From IMG/VR virus record IMGVR_UViG_3300046791_000071, positions 1 to 33,375 of that record: DNA of 33,375 nucleotides. One strand, written 5' to 3'. Shown here one piece after another: positions 19,624-33,375 of this stretch. This DNA comes from a virus. How positions within the stretch are numbered: position 1 is the first letter of the stretch; each line of letters begins with the position of its first letter. The notes under the pieces were generated by a model. That model saw only the letters and a program-made list of their open reading frames with translations, was not told where the DNA came from and did not search any database. The translations under genes were made by a program, and so were the position numbers.

Positions 19624-20916
19624 CTACCTCACCCTCACGGTGTCATAGGTGATCTCGTGGAGCGCGTCATCAATCTTCATCGGCACCTTAAAGTCTAGCG
19701 TTCTGGGCACCAACTTGAAGATCATCCATACGGTGTCGCACTTGGTGACAACGGGTGGGATGGGCGGAGGTGTGGACTGCCCACCAAAGTACCTCCCAAT
19801 CTGGGAGAAGAACCACCCCCGACCACCAGGAGGCACGGTGGGGGTACTCCATATCTCACTCCCCAAGTTCCAGAACATCACCCCACCGATGTCCATTGAG
19901 TCAACAAGCGTCCTTGCGCCAGCGACCGCCTTGTCATAGCCGGGGAACGTGGTGAATGTCCACAACTTCCCATCAACGTAGGCACTGTAAGCGTAGGAGG
20001 TATCGTCCCACCTGATCGTACCGGGCAACACCCCGGAGAGGTAGGAATACTGGGTGGCGAAGTCTGGGTTGGAGCTACCATCGGTCATTGTGGAGATGTT
20101 GAGTTGGCGGATGCGGGTAATCCCACCGCCATACCACGTGGGGTTAGCGTCGAATCCGACCACCACCTTGGACTTGGGCCACCCTGCGGCGACGGCTTCA
20201 ATGGCCGCCTTCTGCATCGAAGGTGCCTCACTGTTGGCACCTTGACCCGCAAGGTAGTCAGTGTACCCGCCAGTACCATTCCAATATTTCCTCGACTTCA
20301 CCGAGTTGTCGTGGACGGCGCGTCCCCACCAATCCCCCACATTGTCGTAGGACATAATGTTCATGTGGTGGACGAGGGGGTTCAAGCTCACCCAACTCTT
20401 TGAGCGTCCCTGCCCCACGGTGAGGACGAGGTAGGCCCCTTTGGGGGTGAGGGAGTCTTTGACTACCTGCATGAACCCCTTGACGTTGGTGAGGGTGGGG
20501 CTACTCTCAATGTCCAACTCGATGAAGTCAATTCCCTTGGCCTCAACGAGGAACACTTGGTAGGATGCCCAACTAGCCCACTTGGTAGGATCATTGATGA
20601 CTGAGACCAATGCGGCATCACTCGACCCACCGTAGCAGAGTCCCGCCTTGACCCCCTTGGAGTGGGCGTAGGCACTCATTGGGGTGAGTTGGTTGAAGTA
20701 GGATTGATTGATCGGTGTGGAGCCACCAGTAGCAAAGAGGACAACGTGGGTCAACGATCCCCAGGGGAGGCTATCCACCGGGACTACACCCGCGGAAGTG
20801 GATGACCACTTGGTGTCGTCAAACGTGAGATACCCGTAGACAATCTTCTTCTCCTGTGCGGAGGTGGTCGCAAAAAGCGACATCCCCAATAACGTGACAG
20901 CGATGAACTTATTCAT
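19624..20916 (-). CDS. Exported GH18 glycosidase (chitinase/endoglycosidase-like)
   Basis: The 430-residue enzyme has a Sec signal peptide (cleavage TSA|QEKK after residue 20) and a GH18 barrel. Visible motifs are CYGGSS at 94-99 (SxGG-like strand), D130-x2-E133-x-D135-x-E137 matching DxxDxDxE with E137 as proton donor and one Asp changed to Glu, MSYD at 188-191, and GGVMFWNLGSE at 344-354. A Pro-rich link and a ~45-residue tail follow. GH18 enzymes cut beta-1,4 links between GlcNAc units. Here it could attack cell wall, capsule or host glycan, or serve as lysin. An AGGAGG site lies 11 bases upstream. Confidence 0.85.
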   Translation of the reverse strand: MNKFIAVTLLGMSLFATTSAQEKKIVYGYLTFDDTKWSSTSAGVVPVDSLPWGSLTHVVLFATGGSTPINQSYFNQLTPMSAYAHSKGVKAGLCYGGSSDAALVSVINDPTKWASWASYQVFLVEAKGIDFIELDIESSPTLTNVKGFMQVVKDSLTPKGAYLVLTVGQGRSKSWVSLNPLVHHMNIMSYDNVGDWWGRAVHDNSVKSRKYWNGTGGYTDYLAGQGANSEAPSMQKAAIEAVAAGWPKSKVVVGFDANPTWYGGGITRIRQLNISTMTDGSSNPDFATQYSYLSGVLPGTIRWDDTSYAYSAYVDGKLWTFTTFPGYDKAVAGARTLVDSMDIGGVMFWNLGSEIWSTPTVPPGGRGWFFSQIGRYFGGQSTPPPIPPVVTKCDTVWMIFKLVPRTLDFKVPMKIDDALHEITYDTVRVR

Positions 20917-21150: not shown

Positions 21151-21531
21151 TTATCGGTTGTCGAGTTCGGGGTGTTCCCGAAGCGTCTGTGAGATAAGCA
21201 TTGCGTTAGCCAAGACGTGCCCGATGGTGGGTTGATGACTTTCCGGGTCAACGTCCTCCTTGCGTTGTAGTGCGGCGATGTGGCGCATGAGGCAATCGAG
21301 TAAGTCTGTGACCGCCCTCCCCTTCATCCAGTTATTGCGGTCGTACTTCTTGGCCCCAAACTCCATCACCCTCGCCATCGGCTCAAGTGAACGTAGATCG
21401 ATGAGGGAGAGTTGGGGCTTGCCGGAGTTGTACCGTTTGGCGACTACCTCGTTGTGGTGGGCCTCATCCATCGTCTTGTCGTGCATTGTGTCCTGCATAT
21501 CTTCTAGGATTGAGGCCACACCGCTACCCAT
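21151..21531 (-). CDS. dATP/dGTP diphosphohydrolase-domain protein (DUF5664 type)
   Basis: The 126-residue protein shows the family signature: RYNSGKPQLSLID (33-45), EFGAKKYDRNNWMKG (57-71), LLDCLMRHIAAL (77-88) and a late GHVLANAMLI (104-113). Related MazG-like phage enzymes remove pyrophosphate from dATP/dGTP, shifting nucleotide pools, in some phages to support 2-aminoadenine DNA. The metal-binding EExxE pattern of true MazG is not obvious here, so substrate and activity are open. PurZ- and DpoZ-type genes are not in this window. Its ATG overlaps the previous stop (TGATG). Confidence 0.7.
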   Translation of the reverse strand: MGSGVASILEDMQDTMHDKTMDEAHHNEVVAKRYNSGKPQLSLIDLRSLEPMARVMEFGAKKYDRNNWMKGRAVTDLLDCLMRHIAALQRKEDVDPESHQPTIGHVLANAMLISQTLREHPELDNR

Positions 21532-22322: not shown

Positions 22323-22883
22323 TCAGAAAGGAATGTCGTCCGTGGTGTCGGGGGCCGCATCGGGTGGGTCAGTCACCACCGCTTCGTGGACAATTTGTTT
22401 CGCCCTCTCCTTGTTGATCCACTCCATATACCTCTCGGAAGGGGTGGTGAAGGTGGGGGTGAGCGCGGGCATCCCAGTGGGGACAGCCATCACGCCAGTC
22501 ACCTTGCGCTTGTCGGTCTCGGTGGCCACGATGGACAGGAGGCAGTTGGCACCAATGATTGTCTCGATGTCGAACCCCTTCAACTCCTCGGCGGTGAACT
22601 TCTTGCCACGCCAGTTCTCCAAGTCCTTGCGGAGGTTGGCCTTCTCTGACAGGGATAGGGTGTAGAATCGGGTAATCATAAACGGCTTCCCCGCGTGTTC
22701 CCCCTGCGTCATCCTCTGGGAAAGTTCCCACGCGACGATCACCTTGCGGGCCTCACTAGGCGGTTTTCCGGGGTATTCGACCTTCTGAATCCCAATATCG
22801 TGCACGCTTACGCAGACTCCCTGCACGGTGCCAGGGGTCGGCTTCTCGAAGTTGTCCCCGTCCTGTTTTGCGATAATCGGCAT
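22323..22883 (-). CDS. Phage single-stranded DNA-binding-like protein
   Basis: The 186-residue protein shows a pattern common in phage replication modules: MPIIAKQDGDNFE, VQGVCVSVHDIGIQKVEYPG, RFYTLSLSEKANLRKDLENW (in part) and FDIETIIGANCLLSIVATE, consistent with an OB fold. The C-terminus is acidic and ends in D-D-I-P-F, identical to the tip through which bacterial SSB recruits partner proteins. A strong AAGGAGAGAGAT site precedes the ATG. It lies with an exonuclease, a NinG-like protein and replication-domain genes, so a role in replication or recombination is well supported by context. Confidence 0.75.
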   Translation of the reverse strand: MPIIAKQDGDNFEKPTPGTVQGVCVSVHDIGIQKVEYPGKPPSEARKVIVAWELSQRMTQGEHAGKPFMITRFYTLSLSEKANLRKDLENWRGKKFTAEELKGFDIETIIGANCLLSIVATETDKRKVTGVMAVPTGMPALTPTFTTPSERYMEWINKERAKQIVHEAVVTDPPDAAPDTTDDIPF

Positions 22884-23780: not shown

Positions 23781-23909
23781 CTAGCTGTTGACCAAGTAGC
23801 AAATATACATTCCAGCCACCACCCCACCAACGAACGCCAGCACCACCAGCCACGCAATAGTCTCATTGTCGAGGACTGGGGGATTGGGTCTATTGTATCG
23901 GTAGTTCAT
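23781..23909 (-). CDS. 42-residue single-span membrane protein, first gene after promoter A
   Basis: The start ATG 23909 is placed directly after a promoter whose -10 box (23915-23920) lies five bases upstream, so the mRNA is probably leaderless. The product is MNYRYNRPNPPVLDNETIAW followed by one span (about 20-39, Gly/Val/Ala-rich) and a short end. An open frame extends upstream to 24068 but runs through the promoter, the palindrome and the preceding gene. Codons 2-5 contain the half-site CTACCGAT. Function unknown. Confidence 0.6.
   Translation of the reverse strand: MNYRYNRPNPPVLDNETIAWLVVLAFVGGVVAGMYICYLVNS
23897..23904. promoter_or_regulatory. Operator half-site A2 (ATCGGTAG)
   Basis: This half-site matches one arm of the palindrome at 23952-23970 and lies inside the first codons of the small membrane gene. 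The same half-site accompanies the second palindrome (31784-31791). The minus-strand match GAACTACCGATA is 12 bases long and identical at both loci. Confidence 0.45.
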
Positions 23910-23914
23910 AATGA

Positions 23915-23943
23915 AATATACCTCACTGGAATTTAAGACGCAA
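23915..23943 (-). promoter_or_regulatory. Promoter A, leaderless type
   Basis: On the minus strand: TTGCGT (23943-23938), 17 bases, TATATT (23920-23915), then TCATT and ATG. The extended box TATATTTC fits the Bacteroidota -7 consensus TAnnTTTG in seven of eight positions. The start codon lies where transcription would begin. Confidence 0.5.
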
Positions 23944-23951
23944 GGGAAATT

Positions 23952-23970
23952 ATCGGTAATCTTTACCGCT
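23952..23970. promoter_or_regulatory. Operator palindrome A
   Basis: ATCGGTAA-TCT-TTACCGCT: arms of eight bases with one mismatch and a 3-base centre. It lies eight bases upstream of the -35 box of promoter A and covers the TAA stop of the winged-helix gene 23963-24160. The same palindrome recurs at 31823-31841. Confidence 0.55.
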
Positions 23971-24160
23971 TCACCCGGTACGCTGGCACCACCTTGTCGC
24001 CCTGACGCTTCCCCACCCTTTCCCACTTCCCGGACTTTACCATATCTGAGGCGAAGGTGGAAATCCACGACCGACTGTGGGGGGTTTCCTTCATCATATC
24101 GGTGATGGACTCAGCGTTCTGGTCAATGATGACTTTTGGTATTTGGGCAGAGGCTTTCAT
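23963..24160 (-). CDS. Small winged-helix/HTH-like protein
   Basis: The 65-residue protein (MKASAQIPKVIIDQNAESIT at its start) ends in HSRSWISTFASDMVKSGKWERV plus GDKVVPAYRVKR, the recognition helix and wing pattern of small winged-helix proteins. A regulatory role is likely. The palindromic site next to its own stop codon suggests it could be the protein that binds there, although this is speculation. The ATG overlaps the exonuclease stop (TAATG). Confidence 0.6.
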   Translation of the reverse strand: MKASAQIPKVIIDQNAESITDMMKETPHSRSWISTFASDMVKSGKWERVGKRQGDKVVPAYRVKR

Positions 24161-24723
24161 TAGTACGCGCTGGCCCCCTTGTCCACCTTGTCGATCAGTG
24201 AGCGCACCCGGTCATAGACGGCCTCAAGCACCACCACATCAATCACACAATGCTCACAGATGTAGTCCATCGACTTCTTGTTTCCGTCGAGGGACGCCTT
24301 GAGCCAGTGGTCAAAGGCAACGGGAGTCTTGGAGACAGGTATCCCCAGGAAGGCTTGGAGGGCGCCAAGGGAGTTCCGGTGGAGGCGGAGGTGCCGCCAA
24401 GAGAGTGAGCAGGGGTCAACGAACTTCACCCATCGCAGGGCGGGCTTGAGCCCATACTTGAGACAGAGGGCGTTGAGGAACGGGCGGTCGAAGCGTGAGC
24501 CGTTGTGGGCTATAAGGATGTCGTACTTCTCAAGCGCGGCCATAGCCGCCACCACCATATCCTTATTATTACTTTTGTTCGTTTTCCACGAAGGGAACTG
24601 ATCCGCCCGGATGAGCTTAACGTCCTTCTTCTTCCCCTCGTATGGCATATGGGCGATACACAGAATGATGGCTGAGTCAGCGTTCAGCCCCGTCATCTCA
24701 AGATCGAAGACCCCGATTTTCAT
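24160..24723 (-). CDS. DnaQ/RNase H-like 3'-5' exonuclease
   Basis: The 187-residue enzyme has the DEDD motifs in order: D7-L-E9 (DLEMTGL), N74-x3-F78-D79 (HNGSRFDRPF) and a C-terminal Y154...H158...D162 (YICEHCVIDV). This is the layout of RNase H-like exonucleases of the YprB/DnaQ type, which remove 3' nucleotides with two metal ions. In phages such enzymes serve recombination, repair or host DNA breakdown. The start overlaps the stop of the 41-residue membrane gene (ATGA) and the stop overlaps the winged-helix start. Confidence 0.8.
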   Translation of the reverse strand: MKIGVFDLEMTGLNADSAIILCIAHMPYEGKKKDVKLIRADQFPSWKTNKSNNKDMVVAAMAALEKYDILIAHNGSRFDRPFLNALCLKYGLKPALRWVKFVDPCSLSWRHLRLHRNSLGALQAFLGIPVSKTPVAFDHWLKASLDGNKKSMDYICEHCVIDVVVLEAVYDRVRSLIDKVDKGASAY

Positions 24724-24845
24724 TTAGTCCTATTTGATTGTTTGAAATATCCCACCAACTCCCACAGTGCCCACGCCCCGCACACAATGAACCCAACTGC
24801 GAGGATGGTGAGGCAGAGGAGGAGGATGAAGTCGATTAAGTCCAC
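24720..24845 (-). CDS. 41-residue single-span membrane protein, GTG start
   Basis: Translation of the gap between the exonuclease and the Pro-rich membrane gene gives MDLIDFILLLCLTILAVGFI, then VCGAWALWELVGYFKQSNRTK: one span and a basic tail. GTG 24845 overlaps the upstream stop by one base (TAGTG), and the TGA stop overlaps the exonuclease ATG (ATGA). Exact coupling at both ends is strong evidence for a gene despite the length. It may belong to the lysis group with 24845-25138 and 25138-25527. Confidence 0.65.
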   Translation of the reverse strand: MDLIDFILLLCLTILAVGFIVCGAWALWELVGYFKQSNRTK

Positions 24846-25138
24846 TACGCACACATCTTCCAGTATGCCGCCGCCATCAACATCAGTGCCGCCGCTATAC
24901 CGGCCTTCATTGGGAACTTGAGCCTAAACGGAATCTTCCCCTCGTGTACCTCCTTGTTCTCAATCACCCCCGCCATTCGCTCGGTATCCTTGTTGACCGC
25001 ATCAATCCACTCATCCTCAGTCTTGAACGGCCAGTAGTAGGGACGAGGGGGTGGGGTCTCGGGAACCTTGTCGAGTTCAACGAGGGGTGGCTTTGACTTC
25101 TTGGAGAGTGGGGTGGTGCCGAAGGTGGGGACTTCCAT
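24845..25138 (-). CDS. Tail-anchored membrane protein, possible lysis partner
   Basis: The 97-residue protein has a Pro/Lys-rich N-terminus (KSKPPLVELDKVPETPPPRP in part), a charged helix (EDEWIDAVNKDTERMAGVIEN) and one C-terminal span (about 77-95, MKAGIAAALMLMAAAYW). The reverse layout of a usual holin suggests a pinholin/antiholin-like or spanin-like role. The gene follows the M15 endolysin with a one-base TAATG overlap, typical of lysis cassettes. The function is inferred from that neighbour. Confidence 0.6.
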   Translation of the reverse strand: MEVPTFGTTPLSKKSKPPLVELDKVPETPPPRPYYWPFKTEDEWIDAVNKDTERMAGVIENKEVHEGKIPFRLKFPMKAGIAAALMLMAAAYWKMCA

Positions 25139-25527
25139 TATTTATCCTCATTGACTAGCTGGATGTGGATGTGGCAATTCGGCTTTAAGCAGGCTTCCAG
25201 AAAAATCTTGAATTCCCCTGGGTGGTACGTCCTCAAAGTTCTGGCAATCATACCCGCCAATTCCGTAGCCACCGTAGCCGGTAAATCATTCCCGCGGAAA
25301 TCCAACGCCTCACCCATCCCAGACTTACAATTCTGGGGATAGTGCCTAGACCCTAGTCCGTGTGGCCCCGTCTTGGGATCACCCTCACACCCGGAGGTGA
25401 CTACGAGGTTCTTCCCCGTGATCCCATAGTCCTTCATTGTGTCGTCGTAGACTTGGGCGATCAATGGGAGGACTTCCAGGAGTTCTGGGTGGACGTTCTT
25501 GATGTCGGCGCCTGATTTCACTATCAC
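25138..25527 (-). CDS. M15-type peptidase endolysin (GTG start)
   Basis: The 129-residue enzyme resembles small M15 DD-/L,D-type peptidases that cut cross-bridges of peptidoglycan. Visible zinc ligands are H62 in SRHY, D76 in ALDFR and H119/H121 in CHIHIQ, in the expected order and spacing. No signal peptide is present, so a holin or another route is needed to reach the wall. GTG 25527 is fixed by an AAGGAG site six bases upstream and by a GTGA overlap with the methyltransferase stop. The two small membrane genes downstream make a plausible lysis cassette. Confidence 0.8.
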   Translation of the reverse strand: MIVKSGADIKNVHPELLEVLPLIAQVYDDTMKDYGITGKNLVVTSGCEGDPKTGPHGLGSRHYPQNCKSGMGEALDFRGNDLPATVATELAGMIARTLRTYHPGEFKIFLEACLKPNCHIHIQLVNEDK

Positions 25528-26168
25528 TTGTTTCTCCTTGCGAGAATATATATGGACAACCCCAAAAGGTCTGTTAGTGAGGTATGATAACTCTGCCCCC
25601 TCAATAGACTTAGGGGAAGTGTAATTGGTGATCTCAATATATTCACCCAGTCCCTTCGGATGCCAGCCTCCAATATCTCACACGATGGGAGCAGAGTGTT
25701 GACGAGGTGGTGGAGCGGGAGGGATGCGCGATGCTCTATGCCATCATAGAATGAGGGCGGCCACTTCCTGAATATCCGGTGGCTAGGTACCTCAATGTAG
25801 ATCACCCCACCACGCACCAACCTCCTGGCGGAGAGAGCGAGTATCTCTAGCGCATCGTAGTATTGGAAGTGTTCGAGGGTGTTGGACAGGATCACCGCGT
25901 GGAATAACGGTGGCAGTCCCCCTAACACCGCCTTACCATCAAAAGTTCCCAAGTCCACAAGAATATGTTCGTCGATACACTTGAGGTCATTGAGGGAGTT
26001 GGGCTCCCTCCCATCCACCTCGTACCCCGGCTTCTCTACCCCCACATACACACAGTCGGGGATATACTTCTTGGTGATGGACGGGGATTTGAAGCCACAC
26101 CCCACATCGAGAATCATTGGGGCCGCAGGGAGGTGGGGGATGATCTTGCGGATGCGGAGGGGGATCAT
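25524..26168 (-). CDS. Class I SAM-dependent methyltransferase
   Basis: The 214-residue enzyme has motif I DVGCG at 21-25, an acidic residue ending the second strand (VGVE45), a later ILVDLGTF strand and AVILSNTLEHF (91-101), the post-I pattern of Methyltransf_11/23 enzymes. ATG 26168 is chosen over GTG 26195 because it overlaps the stop of the 32-residue membrane gene (ATGA). No DNA-methylase NPPY/DPPY motif is present, so a small molecule or glycan is the likelier target. The gene directly follows a membrane glycosyltransferase, which supports envelope-glycan modification by inference. Confidence 0.75.
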   Translation of the reverse strand: MIPLRIRKIIPHLPAAPMILDVGCGFKSPSITKKYIPDCVYVGVEKPGYEVDGREPNSLNDLKCIDEHILVDLGTFDGKAVLGGLPPLFHAVILSNTLEHFQYYDALEILALSARRLVRGGVIYIEVPSHRIFRKWPPSFYDGIEHRASLPLHHLVNTLLPSCEILEAGIRRDWVNILRSPITLPLSLLRGQSYHTSLTDLLGLSIYILARRNK

Positions 26169-26263
26169 TCGTCCTCGTCGTTTGTTATATGCCACAGTAA
26201 AACATACCCAGCGATAACCAGCGCGAGAATGAGGATCACAATGATGAGGATGGCGACAATCAT
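26165..26263 (-). CDS. 32-residue membrane microprotein between glycosyltransferase and methyltransferase
   Basis: The product is MIVAILIIVILILALVIAGY, then VLLWHITNDEDE: one long span and an acidic tail. The ATG overlaps the glycosyltransferase stop and the TGA overlaps the methyltransferase start, both as ATGA. The tight coupling on both sides makes it a credible gene that would be missed by length filters. A subunit or small flippase-like helper of the neighbouring envelope enzymes is possible. Confidence 0.6.
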   Translation of the reverse strand: MIVAILIIVILILALVIAGYVLLWHITNDEDE

Positions 26264-27591
26264 CTCACCACCTCCCACAATCTTACATTCCCAAACTCGC
26301 GAGTTTGACCAAACGTAAATACCGGCCTGAGTGGAAGCCCATCAGAGTACCCACCACGCCACTTGTAGATCGCGGAGAGAATGGTGCTGTCGTTGTCTAT
26401 GATGTGGGTGATTTGGCGGTAGTCGAGGTATCTGGCGAGACTGTCCCCGGTGATGTACGGATGAACTTCATCGTTGACCAGACCGTCGAGGTTGAATACC
26501 ATCCCACGCGAATAATACCCCACCACCCCGGCGTTGAATGAGCCGTACATCCCAAGTGGGAGTGATCTTGCCGCCCGAAGGTTGAGGGCGTTGATGGGGT
26601 AGGGTGGGGATGAGAACAACGTGGTGACGTTGAGGGCAACAACCGCCACAACTACCCCGCCGATCACCGGGAGCCATCTACCGCGCACATCGAACATTTG
26701 CGAGAGTCCAAACAGGAACAGCGGGGCGATGGCAATAACGTGCCAAGTCTGCACCCACTCCAACATCCCTAGGGCTACTACCAGTGCTAGCATCACTGCC
26801 CCTGCAACCCACCGGCGAGACCCTACCACGCCGACGAGGGCGGCTACCACGTATAGTCCACCCGCACTCACACCCATTACGAGTGATGCTAGTTGACCCA
26901 TCCCCCGCCGAAAGAGTCCAACGGGATCGTAGAAGTGTGACCAGTGAGCCTTCATCGCGGCACTTGAGGATGCAACACCGCCGGATACCAAAAGGTTCCA
27001 CCCCACGAGAGAGAATAGCCCGATGGCACCACCGACAAGGAGTGATCTATGGCGGGTGTAGTACCACGCCACCACCACCAGTAGGGCCGCCTCCGGCCTA
27101 GCAAGTACGCACAGTGCGGCAAGCACTCCCACCGCCCTCGTCCTCCCGCTACGCAAGGCCACCCACCCGACCGCCAAGAGGAACATCAATAGTCCCGATT
27201 CCATCCCACTCACCGTACTCAGCATCACCCCGGTTGACCCAACAATGAGGGTAAGGGCTAGGTGTTGTGCGGGGGACTCTAGTGTAGTCCACACCAACAC
27301 CAAGGCCAAGACGCTCATCACGAAACAAAGGGTGATGGCTCCCGCTAGACCACCCGGCACCAGTGCGAGAATGAATCCCCAAAGTGGTTGATACCCAGTG
27401 GTGGATGTTATACCGTCAAACGAGGACGCCCACGGTAAATGTTGCGCGATGGAGAGGTAGTAGAATGTGTCATCTGGGGCGTATGGTATCCGTTGCGACT
27501 CAGGCAATGATAGCACGTAGGTGGAGAACACGAATAGCACACCGATGGCTAACGCGGAGATGGTGCTGTATATGGACTTTGGGTAGGTCAT
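26260..27591 (-). CDS. Polytopic GT-C-like membrane glycosyltransferase
   Basis: The 443-residue protein has roughly ten hydrophobic spans. After the first span comes PDDTFYYLSIAQHLP (39-53), the loop Asp-Asp pair typical of GT-C enzymes that use lipid-phosphate sugars, then GITSTTGYQPLWG (60-72), a pattern of bacterial membrane glycosyltransferases of this type. A ~110-residue extracytoplasmic C-terminal domain follows. Phage-encoded GT-C enzymes such as the Gtr serotype-converting proteins decorate surface polysaccharide and block re-infection. That role is inferred here. It is flanked by ATGA overlaps with 27588-28019 and the 32-residue gene. Confidence 0.75.
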   Translation of the reverse strand: MTYPKSIYSTISALAIGVLFVFSTYVLSLPESQRIPYAPDDTFYYLSIAQHLPWASSFDGITSTTGYQPLWGFILALVPGGLAGAITLCFVMSVLALVLVWTTLESPAQHLALTLIVGSTGVMLSTVSGMESGLLMFLLAVGWVALRSGRTRAVGVLAALCVLARPEAALLVVVAWYYTRHRSLLVGGAIGLFSLVGWNLLVSGGVASSSAAMKAHWSHFYDPVGLFRRGMGQLASLVMGVSAGGLYVVAALVGVVGSRRWVAGAVMLALVVALGMLEWVQTWHVIAIAPLFLFGLSQMFDVRGRWLPVIGGVVVAVVALNVTTLFSSPPYPINALNLRAARSLPLGMYGSFNAGVVGYYSRGMVFNLDGLVNDEVHPYITGDSLARYLDYRQITHIIDNDSTILSAIYKWRGGYSDGLPLRPVFTFGQTREFGNVRLWEVVR

Positions 27592-28019
27592 TCAGATATG
27601 ATAAACTTGTGTCCCGGCAGTCTCTTGATGTGTCCTAGCCTCGCTAGATCACGTAGGGCGCATTGGACCTGGTACCTCGTCATCGCCATCCCCATCTTCT
27701 TGCTCACCCTCTCACACTCCAACGAGGTCATCCCCTCAATATCGGAACATTTGGAGAGAATCACAAGTATCCTCTTACGCATACTTTTGGGGAATCCACC
27801 AGCAACAGTGTCCCGTGGGAACAGGAGGCGGTAGTATTTGCGTGTAGGGTTAGCCTTGCTCCCGGCGTATTTCTCATCCCACCTAGCCCCCGCCTTGGCC
27901 CACCCATAGAAGTATTCACACGCTAACCCTTTAGTGGCACATCTAGCATTGTTGGGACATCCCGCACAGGGGAACAGGTCTGAGCCTGGGAGGGCTGATT
28001 GTGGGGTGGGATCAGCCAT
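27588..28019 (-). CDS. Zinc-binding winged-helix-like regulator
   Basis: The 143-residue protein has a Cys cluster C18-x2-C21-x5-C27-x6-C34 leading into ACEYFYGWAKAGARWDEKYAG and a KYY pair, then a winged-helix-like part (ILVILSKCSDIEGMTSLECERVS...YQVQCALRDLARLGHIKRL). The Cys-aromatic module and the order Cys block then HTH are shared with 18006-18650, so the two are probably paralogues. A DNA-binding regulator is likely. The ATG overlaps the upstream stop by eight bases. Confidence 0.65.
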   Translation of the reverse strand: MADPTPQSALPGSDLFPCAGCPNNARCATKGLACEYFYGWAKAGARWDEKYAGSKANPTRKYYRLLFPRDTVAGGFPKSMRKRILVILSKCSDIEGMTSLECERVSKKMGMAMTRYQVQCALRDLARLGHIKRLPGHKFIISE

Positions 28020-28662
28020 CCTTCTTCTTCAGCGATTCGCGGTAGTCGGCGTAGGTGGGGTACTTGTCTACAATGTCAGGCACCATAGACATCGTTTGAC
28101 CGGGCGGTATAGTCTTGAGTTTCGCCATCGCAAACCCCCGCTCCTCCGCCTTCTCCTCCCGTCCAGCCATTTCAGCAAGCGCGGCCTCCGCTCGTTTCAC
28201 CACACCATCCATAGACGCGGCGTAGATAGCATTGGCCCGACAGGATGAACAGCCAACCCCCTCCCGCATCTTGTCGCGGACGGCTACTAAACATTCAAGG
28301 GCACAATAGTAAATACCCGGTGAATCTGGGAATAGTTTAGCAAGATTGACCGCTTGCATCCTCAATTGCTCATCAGACACCCCCTCGATTGGGGGAGTCT
28401 GCGCGGTGGTGGGGGTGGTGTTGATGAGGTTATACCCTGTACCGCCACACCGCTCACATTGCTCCTGCTTGGGGTTCATCTCCGTTCCTCTCGGGGAGTA
28501 GTACCAACCATTCCCCGCACAATCAGGACACTCCCCCCTCTGCGCGGTGTTTTCCATCTGGAGGATTTCGGAGATAAAGTTCTCCGCTGAAAGTCGCGTC
28601 TTGAAAAGACCGCCCTTAAAGCCATTGAAGATTTTTTGTTTTGCTTTCTCACTTAACGGCAT
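28012..28662 (-). CDS. DnaJ-type zinc-finger protein
   Basis: The 216-residue protein carries two CxxCxGxG motifs, CPDCAGNG (45-52) and CERCGGTG (69-76), the paired repeats of the DnaJ central domain, which bind one zinc. No J domain (HPD) is present. A further CSSC near residue 138 sits in a helical region. The C-terminus is charged (ESLKKKDG). Phages often encode such free-standing zinc modules, with unknown targets. An AAAGGAG site lies about seven bases before the ATG. Confidence 0.65.
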   Translation of the reverse strand: MPLSEKAKQKIFNGFKGGLFKTRLSAENFISEILQMENTAQRGECPDCAGNGWYYSPRGTEMNPKQEQCERCGGTGYNLINTTPTTAQTPPIEGVSDEQLRMQAVNLAKLFPDSPGIYYCALECLVAVRDKMREGVGCSSCRANAIYAASMDGVVKRAEAALAEMAGREEKAEERGFAMAKLKTIPPGQTMSMVPDIVDKYPTYADYRESLKKKDG

Positions 28663-28766
28663 CGCGTTCTCCTTTCTCTTCGAGAATATTCTACACCTGC
28701 GGCAAGTCCAATGATGAATCCGAGACAGAACAAGATTGCGGCCCCCACCATATCATCTGCGCTCAT
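28653..28766 (-). CDS. 37-residue single-span membrane protein
   Basis: The product is MSADDMVGAAILFCLGFIIG, then LAAGVEYSRRERRTRCR: one Gly-containing span and an Arg-rich tail, orientation tail-in by the positive-inside rule. ATG 28766 forms an ATGA overlap with the preceding gene; an open extension to 28856 is only a shadow of that gene. The stop lies inside the start region of the DnaJ-type gene (10-base overlap). Function unknown. Confidence 0.6.
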   Translation of the reverse strand: MSADDMVGAAILFCLGFIIGLAAGVEYSRRERRTRCR

Positions 28767-29614
28767 TCTGCATCCCCCTCTCGGTTCGGTGGGGTGGGGG
28801 TGTAGGGGTATCGGGTCACAGGCCCGCACTCTACAGGGACGGGACAGTTCCGACACTGTCCGTCACAGTCTGGCGAGTGGCCCGGTACTGCGTGGGAAAA
28901 GGTTTCCACGTAGAACTGTTCTCCGCACGCATCACATTGCCAAATTTCAGCACCACACCATTCCTTGTGTTCAAAGCCATCAGCAACTCCGCAGGAACAT
29001 CCATTACTCATATCTTCTCCCCCCTCTCGGTTCGGTGGGGTGGCATCAGCACCCTCCGGTTTGGATTCGTAGAATTGGCGGGCGGCGATTAGGCCATCCC
29101 TGAATTCCGATACAAGCTCATCGGCATCCAATTTATCAAGACTAAACTCGCGCATTAGGACATCTCGCTTTTCGTTGCACATCCGATCAATGTCCTCATC
29201 CGTCAACATCTTCCTCGCGGTACTCACCGGGGAAGGGACAACGTCAACCTTGCAGATTGTGTTTATCCCCATCGCGTCAGCCATCTCCTGAAAACAGGCG
29301 GGACAGATAATACCATTCGGCGAGCCGTTGACTTTGTTAAATATTTCGTTTGGCGTGAACCACGTTGGATTCTTGCCGCCGCATCGCCCACATCGGCCCT
29401 CCAGGTGATTCCCAATCTCACTCCCCCCCGTGTTGGATGAGGGTGCGGAACCGGCGCGGGTGTTCCACGCTTTTAACGCCTTCGGCCAAATCAGATGCCT
29501 TCGACCCTCCACGCCGCATTTACCACATCGGACAAAAGCCTGACCCGTACTCATATCGCATTGCCGCGTGCAATCTTCACACCCACAGAACGGACACGGC
29601 TTCACTTCATCCAT
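28763..29614 (-). CDS. Multi-zinc-ribbon protein with Lar-like N-terminus
   Basis: The 283-residue product opens with VKPCPFCGCEDC..., CGKCGVEGRR and a KALKAWNTR end, the signature of Lar-like (restriction-alleviation-type) zinc ribbons. A second ribbon follows (GRCGRCGGKNPTWF ... GIICPACFQEMADAMG), then a Cys-rich C-terminus with several CxC/CxxC pairs. The linker TPPNREG occurs twice, once before the last module and once at the end. ATG 29614 is chosen from an eight-base overlap with the upstream stop. True Lar shields against type I restriction; whether this mosaic does so is unknown. Confidence 0.65.
   Translation of the reverse strand: MDEVKPCPFCGCEDCTRQCDMSTGQAFVRCGKCGVEGRRHLIWPKALKAWNTRAGSAPSSNTGGSEIGNHLEGRCGRCGGKNPTWFTPNEIFNKVNGSPNGIICPACFQEMADAMGINTICKVDVVPSPVSTARKMLTDEDIDRMCNEKRDVLMREFSLDKLDADELVSEFRDGLIAARQFYESKPEGADATPPNREGGEDMSNGCSCGVADGFEHKEWCGAEIWQCDACGEQFYVETFSHAVPGHSPDCDGQCRNCPVPVECGPVTRYPYTPTPPNREGDAE
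28774..28797 (-). repeat. Linker repeat, copy 2 (24 bp)
   Basis: Perfect 24-bp repeat of 29020-29043. On the minus strand it encodes the TPPNREG linker at the end of the multi-zinc gene. Confidence 0.7.
29020..29043 (-). repeat. Linker repeat, copy 1 (24 bp)
   Basis: Perfect 24-bp match to 28774-28797, encoding TPPNREG between zinc modules. A diverged version (PTANEKG) ends the upstream gene near 29630. Confidence 0.7.
29428..29456 (-). repeat. Linker repeat B, copy 2
   Basis: This 29-bp stretch matches 30137-30165 at 27 positions. On the minus strand it encodes the Ser/Gly-rich linker AGSAPSSNTGG of the multi-zinc protein. Confidence 0.65.
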
Positions 29615-30350
29615 TGTCTTTCCCTTTCTCGTTGGCGGTGGGGTCGTAGGGGGCGGGGAGCGGCATCCACGCGGCAACGAGTTGATCGTCGCGGGTGAGG
29701 TGGCGCAACGACCAATGCGGGTCATCGTCGGTCTGATACCACGCCACATCGCAACCAGTTTCCGTTCGGGGTGGGTATTCATAGACCAAGTAATGCCCAT
29801 CATACTCCGGCTTTTCCTCTGGCCACTTTCTCCACCCTACGGCGGGTTCGGAGGTTTGGCGAAAGGCGAGTGGAATGTTATCAATCGTTCGAATTGGAGG
29901 GTGTAGGCGTGCATACGCAAGGTGCGATGCTTTGCTTGAAATCAGAGCGCGCCTCAACTCCTCTACCGCCCAACTTCTGCACGAACATCCGATTTCGTGT
30001 CTTCCTTCACGATGGATGCAGAAAAATGTCGGCTTATCTACCGCTTCGTTATATAACTTCTGGAAATCGGGCCGCCGCTCTACATTGCCAATCTCTATGT
30101 GTGCATCAGCCTCCGCATACGTGCCCCCCGCCCCCTCCGTGGTGGATGAGGATGCGGAACCGGCGGTGAAAGCGTCATATACGTCCGTATAGTGGACAGA
30201 ATGTCGGTCAACACCTATCCCTTCCACGCGGAACACATTGTCCGCATATTCCCTCGCCTTCATCTCCGCGTCCATTTCGTTCCTCGTCATTTTCTCCCTC
30301 AGTCCTAATTGTTCTACATCGGTGTCGATGGGGACGATGGGGTCATTCAT
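29607..30350 (-). CDS. DUF551-containing modular protein
   Basis: The 247-residue protein ends in a DUF551 domain (about 172-235: GWRKWPEEKPEYDGHYLVYEY in part, then VAWY and VAAWMPLP). This domain is common in Ea22-type accessory proteins of lambdoid and other phages, with unknown function. The N-terminal part is charged, followed by a Ser/Thr/Gly linker (AGSASSSTTEGAGG) and a small Cys/His region (CIHREGRHEIGCSC). It overlaps neighbours by eight bases at each end. The linker DNA recurs in the next gene, suggesting module shuffling. Confidence 0.65.
   Translation of the reverse strand: MNDPIVPIDTDVEQLGLREKMTRNEMDAEMKAREYADNVFRVEGIGVDRHSVHYTDVYDAFTAGSASSSTTEGAGGTYAEADAHIEIGNVERRPDFQKLYNEAVDKPTFFCIHREGRHEIGCSCRSWAVEELRRALISSKASHLAYARLHPPIRTIDNIPLAFRQTSEPAVGWRKWPEEKPEYDGHYLVYEYPPRTETGCDVAWYQTDDDPHWSLRHLTRDDQLVAAWMPLPAPYDPTANEKGKDNG
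30137..30165 (-). repeat. Linker repeat B, copy 1
   Basis: 27 of 29 bases match 29428-29456. It encodes AGSASSSTTEG in the DUF551 protein, so adjacent genes share a linker at DNA level. Confidence 0.65.
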
Positions 30351-30525
30351 CGTTGTCCCCCGGTATATGTTCTTCGCAGTAATAACCGTGGCCTATTTGT
30401 GTGAGTTCGCCAAGATAGAACAGGCTCTTACACTTCACACACATTCCGGCCAGTCCATCGACCCACGCCTGGATGATGGCCTCCTCACGCTTGCCATCCT
30501 CGTACAGGGACTCATCGGTACTCAT
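30343..30525 (-). CDS. Small zinc-ribbon-like protein
   Basis: This is a 60-residue protein with a C29-x2-C32 pair and a later HGYYCEEH segment, enough for one zinc site. The ends are acidic. It starts six bases after the Cys-rich exported gene and overlaps the DUF551 gene by eight bases. No ribosome site is clear. Function unknown. Confidence 0.55.
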   Translation of the reverse strand: MSTDESLYEDGKREEAIIQAWVDGLAGMCVKCKSLFYLGELTQIGHGYYCEEHIPGDNDE

Positions 30526-30531
30526 GTCAAG

Positions 30532-30765
30532 TCACTGTGAGCAGTATGTGGCGCAATTCGTTCCGCGCCCATTGTCGAGGACACAGCTCTTGTTCCCCTC
30601 GGCGTTATTGCTCCCATCTGGGTTAATGGCCGACCTGGAACAATCACACACCGCCGCACACCTACTACCCCTGAGTGCCGTGGGGACAGGTTCCACGAGC
30701 TTGTAGACGCTCCCCAATATACTTACGATGGAGGTGAACGATACCGCGATGAGTAAGGTTTTCAT
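30532..30765 (-). CDS. Exported or membrane-anchored Cys-rich small protein
   Basis: The 77-residue product has an N-terminal hydrophobic segment (TLLIAVSFTSIVSILGSVY) acting as signal or anchor, then a mature part with six cysteines (C36, C40, C42, C61, C71, C75), likely disulfide-bonded outside the cytoplasm. ATG 30765 overlaps the stop of the thioredoxin-like gene (ATGA), which rules out the longer open frame. Being coupled to an exported thioredoxin-like protein suggests that protein handles its disulfides. No family recognised. Confidence 0.6.
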   Translation of the reverse strand: MKTLLIAVSFTSIVSILGSVYKLVEPVPTALRGSRCAAVCDCSRSAINPDGSNNAEGNKSCVLDNGRGTNCATYCSQ

Positions 30766-31145
30766 TTTGCACCTGTTGGTTGGAAGGTTGAATCGAGTTC
30801 CCCCTGCCACATCCACACAATCTTGCCGCCCTTGATCTGGATTGTCAGCGGGACGTTGTTTAGTTGATTGGCTAACATAAACTCTTGGGCCTCGCTCGGA
30901 TCACCCCCACAGTCAAGGCAGATGGTGGTGACGTTGTGCCCGGTCTCGATGAGTGTATTGATTGACGTGAATGAGGCGATACAGTGAGGGCACGTTGAGG
31001 TAAAGATGAAGATGTACCCATTGCCCATTGAGTCGGCGTAGGGTTTGAGTGCGCCGATGTCGGGGAGGGTGTTGGTGGGGACGACCAAGCCGACGATTAC
31101 CGCGGCGGCCACGAGGACTGAAGTGAGTATTACTAAAAACTTCAT
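30762..31145 (-). CDS. Membrane-anchored thioredoxin-like protein (CPHC)
   Basis: The 127-residue protein has an N-terminal anchor (about 3-22) and a thioredoxin fold: strand YIFIFTSTCPHC with active-site C52-P-H-C55, a second CLDC pair (77-80), cis-proline V98-P99 and a final strand pair (TIQIKGGKIVWMWQG). The CPHC motif matches the DsbA active site, favouring an oxidising role; the TlpA/ResA-like brevity and anchor suggest work in the periplasm. It is coupled by ATGA to the lipoprotein before it and the Cys-rich protein after it. Confidence 0.8.
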   Translation of the reverse strand: MKFLVILTSVLVAAAVIVGLVVPTNTLPDIGALKPYADSMGNGYIFIFTSTCPHCIASFTSINTLIETGHNVTTICLDCGGDPSEAQEFMLANQLNNVPLTIQIKGGKIVWMWQGELDSTFQPTGAK

Positions 31146-31774
31146 CGAAGTTCTCCCAATTCAAAGTGTAGATTCTCTGGGTTGGCAACATCAGACACCC
31201 GGTAGATCAAAATAAGGTGTTCCTCTGTCGTGAGGGTGTTGTGCTGTCTCCCCCAAATCGTTGAGGGTAGAAGTGTATCCCCACCACCCACAAGCCTCGC
31301 CATTTGTCCGATGTTGGAAATGTCCGGCTGTGGGCAGGGTTGGTCCGCCATCCCCATCAGTGGGCGACCGTTGAACATTGCGGACTGGCAGGGATAGGAG
31401 GGATTGTAGAGGTTGAGCACCAAAAGCAGGGAATCCGGGTGATCCCCGCCCATTCGGTTCCACGGCTTCCCACCACGATCCACGTAGAGGCCCCTAGCTT
31501 GCACCGTAAGGCCGTACGTCCTCTCGTAGGCCGTGGAGTCCCCAAACCCATCACGAAGTTGTTGTAGCCTCGTTATGGCCCGTATAACTTCCGGCGTGTA
31601 GGCCGTTGCCATATAATACACGGTGGCAGACTTGTCGCGGAGGTTGTGTTGCATTGCCCCGCCTATAACGATCAGGCAATCGGTAGCATCCCAGGTGTTC
31701 GAGGGGTTGCGGACTACCTCACTTGGTGAGGCGTAGCACCCGCAGAGGAGGAGGAGTAGTGGGAAAAGTCTCAT
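31142..31774 (-). CDS. Lipoprotein, first gene after promoter B
   Basis: The 210-residue product starts MRLFPLLLLLCGC, a lipoprotein signal with probable lipidated Cys13 (or Cys11). The mature part is soluble and mixed helix/strand (PEVIRAITRLQQLRDGFGDS; SLLLVLNLYNPSYP), with Cys residues near QPCPQ and YPCQS. ATG 31774 follows a promoter by six bases and has no ribosome site; an upstream extension to 31867 runs through the promoter and operator. No family recognised. With the two genes after it, it forms an envelope cassette. Confidence 0.65.
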   Translation of the reverse strand: MRLFPLLLLLCGCYASPSEVVRNPSNTWDATDCLIVIGGAMQHNLRDKSATVYYMATAYTPEVIRAITRLQQLRDGFGDSTAYERTYGLTVQARGLYVDRGGKPWNRMGGDHPDSLLLVLNLYNPSYPCQSAMFNGRPLMGMADQPCPQPDISNIGQMARLVGGGDTLLPSTIWGRQHNTLTTEEHLILIYRVSDVANPENLHFELGELR

Positions 31775-31780
31775 TGTTTG

Positions 31781-31809
31781 AATATCGGTAGTTCTCGTTA
31801 AAATGTCAA
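31781..31809 (-). promoter_or_regulatory. Promoter B, leaderless type
   Basis: On the minus strand: perfect TTGACA (31809-31804), 17 bases, GATATT (31786-31781), then CAAACA and ATG. No ribosome site lies between. The half-site ACTACCGATA overlaps the -10 box (plus-strand ATCGGTAG at 31784-31791), a position where a repressor would block RNA polymerase. Confidence 0.65.
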
Positions 31810-31822
31810 GCAATTTCTTCAT

Positions 31823-31841
31823 ATCGGTAAAGATTACCGAT
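31823..31841. promoter_or_regulatory. Operator palindrome B
   Basis: ATCGGTAA-AGA-TTACCGAT: perfect 8-base arms with a 3-base centre, 13 bases upstream of the -35 box of promoter B. It covers the stop codon of the gene 31834-32193, just as palindrome A covers a stop codon. Confidence 0.65.
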
Positions 31842-32193
31842 TTGCGGTGCCTGAGATCGGTGCCCATATTTCACGGAGTTTGTCCCAGTGTTTGCGGGCT
31901 AAAACAAGGAATCTCGCCGCTTCTTCCTCGTTGATGTTTTCGATGTGATGGGGGGCGAATATCCCCTTGCGTTGGTGCATTATAAACACCTCGGCGTATT
32001 TCCTTTCGGGGTGGTCCTCGTCCACCGGCTTGATGTCCCAACGGAAAATCAGGTTCATATCAATATCCGCATCTTCATACTCTGCGAGGAAATCGGTCAT
32101 TGTCGGATGCTTCATATTCGGGTCATTTGAAAAATAGTTCATCTCGGAGCAGTAATACGGATGTGGGACCGCGAGTGAGTCTAATACGTTCAT
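31834..32193 (-). CDS. Conserved-type phage protein, unknown
   Basis: The 119-residue protein starts MNVLDSLAVPHPYYCSEMNY and contains DADIDMNLIFRWDI and MHQRKGIFAPHHIENI, then a helical end (EEEAARFLVLARKHWDKL). This block order is seen in small proteins of many phages, with no known role. ATG 32193 is chosen for its GGAGA site seven bases upstream; the open frame to 32298 overlaps the opposite-strand microgene. Row 32101-32160 has only 25 G+C of 60, lower than most of the window. Confidence 0.65.
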   Translation of the reverse strand: MNVLDSLAVPHPYYCSEMNYFSNDPNMKHPTMTDFLAEYEDADIDMNLIFRWDIKPVDEDHPERKYAEVFIMHQRKGIFAPHHIENINEEEAARFLVLARKHWDKLREIWAPISGTANR

Positions 32194-32207
32194 CTTATCT
32201 CTCCAAT

Positions 32208-32236
32208 TTGACTTTATTGAAAAAGTTCCCGATATT
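32208..32236 (+). promoter_or_regulatory. Promoter C, leaderless type, + strand
   Basis: TTGACT (32208-32213), 17 bases, GATATT (32231-32236), then TCCCC and ATG at 32242. It has the same layout as promoters A and B but points rightwards. It also lies upstream of the - strand gene ending at 32193. Confidence 0.6.
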
Positions 32237-32241
32237 TCCCC

Positions 32242-32394
32242 ATGCCCACCCAATCCAATGAATCCTACTCCGTGATCCTCGCCGGGAACCTGAGACACCC
32301 CGAGAACGTGGAGAAGGTACTACGGTTCGACTCGGTGGAATCCTACCTTATCTGGCAACACGACCTCGATAAGTGGCGGAGAGTGTGCCGCTAG
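32242..32394 (+). CDS. 50-residue + strand microprotein inside the - strand block
   Basis: The product MPTQSNESYSVILAGNLRHP, then ENVEKVLRFDSVESYLIWQH and a basic end (DLDKWRRVCR), looks protein-like, with balanced charge and aromatic residues. It is the only credible + strand gene to the right of 17757. It has its own promoter with the ATG five bases after the -10 box and no ribosome site. Its stop lies one base from the stop of the opposing gene. An early regulator or host-takeover peptide is a possibility, unproven. Confidence 0.55.
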   Translation: MPTQSNESYSVILAGNLRHPENVEKVLRFDSVESYLIWQHDLDKWRRVCR

Positions 32395-32395
32395 C

Positions 32396-32878
32396 CTAGC
32401 CAGCCCACACATACCCCTGCTCGGGGACACTCCCGCGTCGTTCGTCCGGCTTAATCTCGCCTTCACGGATAACAAAAACTTCCCCGCTTCTGAGGTATTG
32501 TTTGAGTGTCAGATATTTCTTCCCGTATTTGTTGTGCCCCACCTCGACATATTTTCCGATGGCGGGACGCCCAGCCACACACCAATCATTTTTCTTGTGG
32601 TCGTAGATCGCAGACACCGGCCCTAAATCCTTCCCCGATTTCTTGTCGAAATAATGAAAAGCACACCCCCGGTCATAAGCGGTAGCATCCTCTAGGGTTG
32701 GAGACTCGGACACTGAGTAGTCTCCCCCGCAACAGGTGCAGGTCACTCGTCTGGGGCTATGCCCAAACCTATTATAAAAGATGACTGTTGCCTCATTCTC
32801 TGGGGCCTCGATGATGATAAACTGCCACTTCTCTTTCAATCCACCGCCAGAGTGCATGTCCATGAACCGCGTCCACAT
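32396..32878 (-). CDS. Conserved-type phage protein with Cys cluster
   Basis: The 160-residue protein contains RFMDMHSGGGLKEKWQFIII (5-24), EAPENEATVIFYNRFGHSPR and VTCTCCGGDYSVSES (45-59), then DATAYDRGCAF and a C-terminal EVFVIREGEI segment. This block order recurs in many large phages as a hypothetical protein; the CxCCG part probably binds zinc. A GAGGTG site lies about five bases before the ATG. It meets the + strand microgene tail to tail with one base between stops. Function unknown. Confidence 0.7.
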   Translation of the reverse strand: MWTRFMDMHSGGGLKEKWQFIIIEAPENEATVIFYNRFGHSPRRVTCTCCGGDYSVSESPTLEDATAYDRGCAFHYFDKKSGKDLGPVSAIYDHKKNDWCVAGRPAIGKYVEVGHNKYGKKYLTLKQYLRSGEVFVIREGEIKPDERRGSVPEQGYVWAG

Positions 32879-33023: not shown

Positions 33024-33375
33024 TTGCCAACCTTTTTGAATAGTTTCATGTATTCCCCGTATTCCGCGATTTCAGCCTCGGAGTATCCTTCCTTGCGGCC
33101 TACCGCCTCGTAATGTTCCAGCCACCAGTCGAATGTATTACAATGGCATCCAATCTGAATGTGTCCGTGTTGGCAGTTGGTGAGTGAGTGGCGCGAGCCG
33201 ATGATGAATAGGGGGGATTTATCCCACGCCGAGCCGTAGACCCGCGCCGAGCCGTAGACCTCCGCCGAGCCGTAGACCTGCGCCGAGCCGTAGACCTCCG
33301 CCGAGCCGGAGACCTGCGCCGAGCCGTAGACCCGCGCCGAGCCGTAGACCTCCGCCGAGCCGTAGACCTGCGCCG
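33020..33375 (-). CDS. VYGSA-repeat beta-helix-like protein (5' end outside window)
   Basis: The visible 117 residues begin with eight hexapeptides of the form (Q/E/R)-V-Y-G-S-A (one has VSGSA), followed by WDKSPLFIIGSRHSLTNCQH and IQIGCHCNTFDWWLEHY, ending in a charged helix (EGYSEAEIAEYGEYMKLFKK). Such repeats fold as a left-handed beta-helix in related proteins. The C-terminal 'SPL.I.GSRH...NC...I.IGCxCxTFxWW' domain resembles the phage DUF7666 group, usually joined to V-x-G-x-A repeats. The function of these proteins is unknown. The start lies beyond the right edge. Confidence 0.7.
   Translation of the reverse strand, partial: AQVYGSAEVYGSARVYGSAQVSGSAEVYGSAQVYGSAEVYGSARVYGSAWDKSPLFIIGSRHSLTNCQHGHIQIGCHCNTFDWWLEHYEAVGRKEGYSEAEIAEYGEYMKLFKKVGK
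33227..33375 (-). repeat. 18-bp tandem repeat coding for VYGSA hexapeptides
   Basis: Eight full 18-bp units start at 33227 and every 18 bases to 33353; a ninth is cut by the window edge. The first codon varies (Gln, Glu or Arg) while the rest is nearly identical, so the array expands by whole codon sets and can change length by slippage without a frameshift. Confidence 0.85.

Follow-up and report, generated by a model that had tools for sequence, protein, structure and literature searches.

Leaderless phage mRNAs are already known, although the arrangement is uncommon. Kasugamycin is described as sparing leaderless mRNA (PMC5230787). In phage lambda the cI gene, expressed from PRM, has the arrangement TAGATT-6-ATG as read from the lambda record: the ATG follows six nucleotides after the −10 box, there is no Shine-Dalgarno (SD) site, and operators lie beside the promoter. 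The cI and cro genes of the telomere phage PY54 are leaderless by rapid amplification of cDNA 5' ends (PMC4488713), and PaaR2 of prophage CP-933P is another leaderless phage mRNA, with its promoter directly before the ATG (PMC8630535). In leaderless genes of Actinobacteria and Deinococcus-Thermus, TANNNT stands about 12 bp before the start (PMC3160421, PMC12340547), and genome surveys of leaderless bacterial genes give this distance for the −10 box, counted from its first base (PMC3160421). Here we describe three sigma70-type promoter-like sites, A, B and C, in the virus record IMGVR_UViG_3300046791_000071, whose positions 1 to 33,375 form the window analysed. Each site lies immediately before the ATG of a gene of the same letter. 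We favour, with about even confidence, the reading that these are sigma70-type operon promoters under operator control, with leaderless mRNA probable at B and possible at A and C.

The three sites lie where the earlier note had placed them, and their letters, their 17-base spacers and the 5, 6 and 5 bases to the ATG are all as it gave them (Table 1). Each fits the lambda cI type of spacing, with the −10 box ending 5–7 nt from the start codon and the −35 box at 16–18 nt, and the start codon is ATG in all three. Promoters B and C have the −10 region CCGATATT in common. The gaps that hold A, B and C are AT-rich, with a GC content of 0.34, 0.32 and 0.35 in a genome of 56% GC. The first base of the −10 box stands 11, 12 and 11 bp before the ATG in A, B and C, as in the TANNNT genes; unlike those genes, the three sites also have a −35 box, and most genes of the window have an SD site. 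The likeness to lambda cI is closest at B, where the ATG follows six nucleotides after the −10 box, no SD site precedes it and the putative operator is adjacent. To call the geometry the same in all three, as had been done before, hides a decisive one-base difference (5 versus 6 nt), and the cases are of unequal quality. Bacterial RNA polymerase starts most often 7 bp past the −10 box (PMC5730371). Promoter B places the A of its ATG precisely there, and if active it should thus give a leaderless mRNA.

Table 1. Coordinates of the promoter sites, genes and repeats discussed in the text
Feature	Coordinates	Strand	Description
Promoter A	23915..23943	−	TTGCGT 23943-23938, 17 nt, TATATT 23920-23915, 5 nt, ATG 23909
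Promoter B	31781..31809	−	TTGACA 31809-31804, 17 nt, GATATT 31786-31781, 6 nt, ATG 31774
Promoter C	32208..32236	+	TTGACT 32208-32213, 17 nt, GATATT 32231-32236, 5 nt, ATG 32242
Gene A	23781..23909	−	42 aa; one apparent membrane helix MNYRYNRPNPPVLDNETIAWLVVLAFVGGVVAGMYICYLVNS, judged by eye
Gene B	31142..31774	−	210 aa; starts MRLFPLLLLLCGCYA; first gene of leftward operon
ORF C (open reading frame)	32242..32394	+	50 aa; lone rightward ORF in this part; stops 1 bp short of the end of convergent gene 32396-32878
Palindrome ATCGGTAAAGATTACCGAT	31823..31841		Perfect, 19 bp (arms of 8 bp, centre of 3 bp); overlaps stop codon of gene 31834-32193; putative operator for promoter B
Palindrome, copy 2	23952..23970		One mismatch; centre in opposite orientation; overlaps stop codon of gene 23963-24160
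12-mer GAACTACCGATA	31783..31794	−	Half-site-like; overlaps −10 box of B
12-mer GAACTACCGATA, identical copy	23896..23907	−	Just inside gene A
SD-like GAGGT	23920..23924	−	−7.3 kcal/mol; 10 nt before ATG of gene A; overlaps first base of −10 box

The earlier note took all three genes to be leaderless. This is well founded for B, by its lambda cI spacing, its modal start position, its lack of an SD site and a signal peptide at the ATG, and we think it fairly probable that B is translated in this way; the case is weaker for A and C. The N-terminus of gene B, recognised by eye, is a lipoprotein-type signal peptide with an LCGC lipobox that begins exactly at the ATG, which supports this start. The in-frame starts further upstream, at 31822 and 31867, were rejected: neither has a good SD site, and they would lengthen the protein ahead of its signal peptide by 16 or 31 residues. 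SD sites of −5 kcal/mol or better precede about 70% of the window genes versus 35% of control ATGs. The host thus probably relies on SD sites, and the absence of one is notable. The claim that none of the three genes has a ribosome site is correct for B and C (−2.7 and −0.4 kcal/mol, respectively) but fails for A, with its GAGGT.

The palindrome common to A and B, which the earlier note missed, is better evidence that these may be real and co-regulated promoters. It lies upstream of the −35 box in both cases, 13 bp away at B and 8 bp away at A. With up to one mismatch, the 19-bp palindrome occurs within the window only at A and B, and it is not present at promoter C. A palindromic phage operator would be recognised by its presence at two or more promoters, and this palindrome does recur at A and B. 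The two copies share 17 bp exactly (any repeated 17-mer was seen in 12 of 100 shuffled windows), and both sit at the edges of gaps, which make up about 3% of the window. Their centres are in opposite orientation, so it is the DNA duplex that is conserved, as in an operator. The shorter motif CCGATA has 19 copies in the window, five of them in or at gaps. ACCGATA also occurs at 21152-21161 (minus strand), at the stop codon of gene 21151-21531 and just before the SD site of the next gene. No DNA-binding regulator was recognised among the scanned genes of the window, which is a fragment. Exact matches to the 19-mer in viral contigs were two, in a tape-measure-type gene and in an unrelated phage, and were taken as chance.

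Both features recur in one other virus. Searches of viral contigs with the capsid, B and exonuclease proteins, and of genomes with the capsid protein, found no close relatives; the sole useful one, found through a tail/virion protein, is a 44-kb contig, G001 (IMGVR_UViG_3300027819_000002). Its major capsid protein is 45% identical, and its virion genes are in the same order as in the window. The best sigma70-type site of G001 is TTGACA-17-TATATT at 33344-33316 (minus strand), which precedes a leader of about 160 nt and then the leftward virion genes. Just upstream of its −35 box, ATCGGTAA stands twice (33379 and 33359), as direct repeats 20 bp apart. The second-best site, TTGACA-17-TATTAT-6-ATG, opens a 58-residue zinc-ribbon-like ORF followed by an RNA ligase. 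The half-site and the geometry from −10 box to ATG thus both recur, at non-homologous genes. A count over 28 loci (342 kb of viral DNA, most of it unrelated) gave four strong sites followed exactly 5–6 nt downstream by an ATG-initiated ORF; three belong to the window and the fourth to G001. Without the three that the earlier note had itself named, this tally is one case, weak evidence alone. A weak match of gene B in G001 (50% over 30 residues) was set aside once it proved to be an RNA ligase. The 22323-22883 protein has relatives at 18 loci, which showed no synteny and were kept as background only.

From these features we propose the following mechanism. A and B would be sigma70-type operon promoters of the leftward cluster of replication and accessory genes, each placed in one of its few AT-rich gaps. 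The same palindromic operator ahead of both would be bound by a regulator of the phage or of the host. Packing of the promoters into gaps of 50–60 bp would bring the ATG of the first gene to the transcription start. In B, the A of the start codon would be the first transcribed base, and the 70S ribosome would bind the 5'-terminal AUG of the resulting leaderless mRNA, as for lambda cI. In A and C, transcription would start at the ATG or within 1–3 nt of it, and the RNA would be partly leaderless and partly without an intact AUG. For A, mRNA reading through from upstream could provide a second route of expression through GAGGT.

Several observations weigh against this proposal, and those on A and C bear on the rival reading that survives best. 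The homology searches made for genes A and B and ORF C found no convincing homologues, and G001, the single relative available for promoter conservation, shares the structural genes and not the A/B/C region. In promoters A and C, position 6 falls on the A of the start codon and position 7 on its T, so mixed 5' ends are expected, some without a complete AUG. A CCT discriminator shifts the start to position 9 (PMC5730371); the discriminator of promoter C is pyrimidine-rich (TCCCC), and its start may be pushed to position 8 or 9. The −35 box of promoter A is weak and matches the consensus at three of six positions, and its GAGGT is as strong as the SD sites of most window genes. The leaderless case is weaker for A because of this SD-like site and −35 box, and weaker for C because it is a 50-codon ORF without homologues behind such a discriminator. 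We regard A as possibly leaderless but with some doubt, C with just as much, and all three together as unlikely. The rival reading holds that the promoters are real and that A and C are not leaderless, transcription starting 7–9 bp past the −10 box and within the start codon, or that expression of A and B comes chiefly from read-through mRNA with ordinary or SD-weak initiation; the palindrome would then be the sole relevant regulatory feature. A and B do lie within a one-directional gene cluster, where read-through is likely, and gene A with its GAGGT could be translated from such mRNA. SD sites weaker than −4 kcal/mol are also found at 13 of the 47 gene starts of the window. However, the exact lambda cI spacing of B, with no SD site, stands against this reading, as does the base before the A of the ATG. 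A pyrimidine preceding an A favours transcription start on that A, and both A and C have one there. On balance the rival is a possible, though somewhat unlikely, account.

A second alternative is chance: AT-rich gaps yield promoter-like hexamers by composition, and three near an ATG were picked. The choice of A, B and C was indeed post hoc. The pattern TTG-N20-(T/G)ATATT-N5/6-ATG has four matches in the window versus 0.01 expected from dinucleotide shuffles, an unfair expectation, as the pattern had been written from the sites themselves. This search, which the earlier note had proposed for the genome and which was run on the window, recovers A, B and C, but the fourth match (27766-27738, minus strand, with ATG 27731 in frame) is internal to gene 27588-28019; the pattern is therefore not specific to gene starts. 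A general scan for sigma70 hexamers gives 12 promoter-like sites versus 11.5 expected, which is no excess, and promoter A falls under its threshold. Equally high hexamer scores occur elsewhere in coding DNA. Among all positions on both strands, B ranks 4th, C 7th and A 10th by a −35/−10 weight matrix of approximate textbook Escherichia coli frequencies. Against chance, shuffling of each gap singly, with its AT-richness kept, gives a probability below 0.01 in every case (p = 0.008 for A, 0.003 for B and 0.0075 for C) for an equally strong site 4–8 nt from the ATG. By these values, 47 gene starts should yield about 0.3 such cases, and three are moderately above chance. The palindrome common to A and B also argues against chance, as does the similar site in G001, while none at 5–6 nt was seen in the other viral DNA (264 kb). 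We consider chance unlikely.

It is less probable still that the palindrome is an RNA feature, such as a 3'-terminal hairpin of the upstream gene that acts as a terminator or in processing; this would be compatible with either view of the promoters. Both copies overlap an upstream stop codon, and both can fold (−5.5 and −7.2 kcal/mol). No U-run follows the palindrome, however. As its 3-nt centre reads AGA in one of the transcripts but TCT in the second, the duplex and not an RNA loop is conserved; the half-sites of G001 are direct repeats beside a promoter and form no hairpin. A Bacteroidetes-type promoter (TAnnTTTG), raised by signal peptides ending in AQ, was rejected as the main reading on account of the strong SD use, and an N4-type hairpin promoter (a triloop stem) fits neither the capsid, which is of another kind, nor the distance of about 50 nt from hairpin to ATG.

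The surroundings of the three genes are compact. The gene after B in the leftward operon overlaps it by ATGA. The gene preceding B, 31834-32193 (minus strand), encodes a 119-residue phrog_7880 protein that shares up to 55% identity with function-unknown proteins in 61 phage records, mostly of Vibrio phages. ORF C fits exactly between two genes of the minus strand; by codon score it is intermediate between coding and non-coding, and its GC content by codon position (.55/.35/.78) is coding-like. The leftward cluster also contains a secreted-type GH18 glycosyl hydrolase (chitinase family, Pfam 7e-16) at 19624-20916 (minus strand). At 28763-29803 (minus strand) a long ORF with a match to Lar-like restriction alleviation proteins overlaps the reading frame of the next gene. 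The right end of the window, 33191-33375, is an array of 18-nt repeats (CGCCGAGCCGTAGACCTG), which encode VYGSAQ/E-type repeats on the minus strand.

Compared with the described systems, the novelty here would lie in the type of gene, membrane protein and lipoprotein, and in the position of the operator. Lambda cI is a repressor, whereas B is a predicted lipoprotein and A a small membrane protein. The lambda operators lie at the divergent cI–cro switch, whereas the putative operator here is upstream of the −35 box in a one-directional cluster. PY54 cI and cro and PaaR2 resemble A and B as phage genes with a promoter immediately before the ATG and an adjacent operator (here putative), but those genes encode regulators of a divergent switch and their 5' ends have been mapped, while A and B are first genes of same-direction operons, with starts predicted from sequence. 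A wider picture, which we hold to be improbable, is a phage-lineage regulon of leaderless operons under one operator, with membrane and lipoprotein genes at the transcription start using the 70S route, apart from their SD-led neighbours. If B, and with it A and C, is truly leaderless, leaderless translation in phages would reach beyond repressor genes to genes for accessory membrane proteins. As a DNA bait, the palindrome offers a concrete means of finding the regulator of this uncharacterised phage group. Even if these genes are not leaderless, the operator-promoter modules would still be a useful annotation of the leftward operons.

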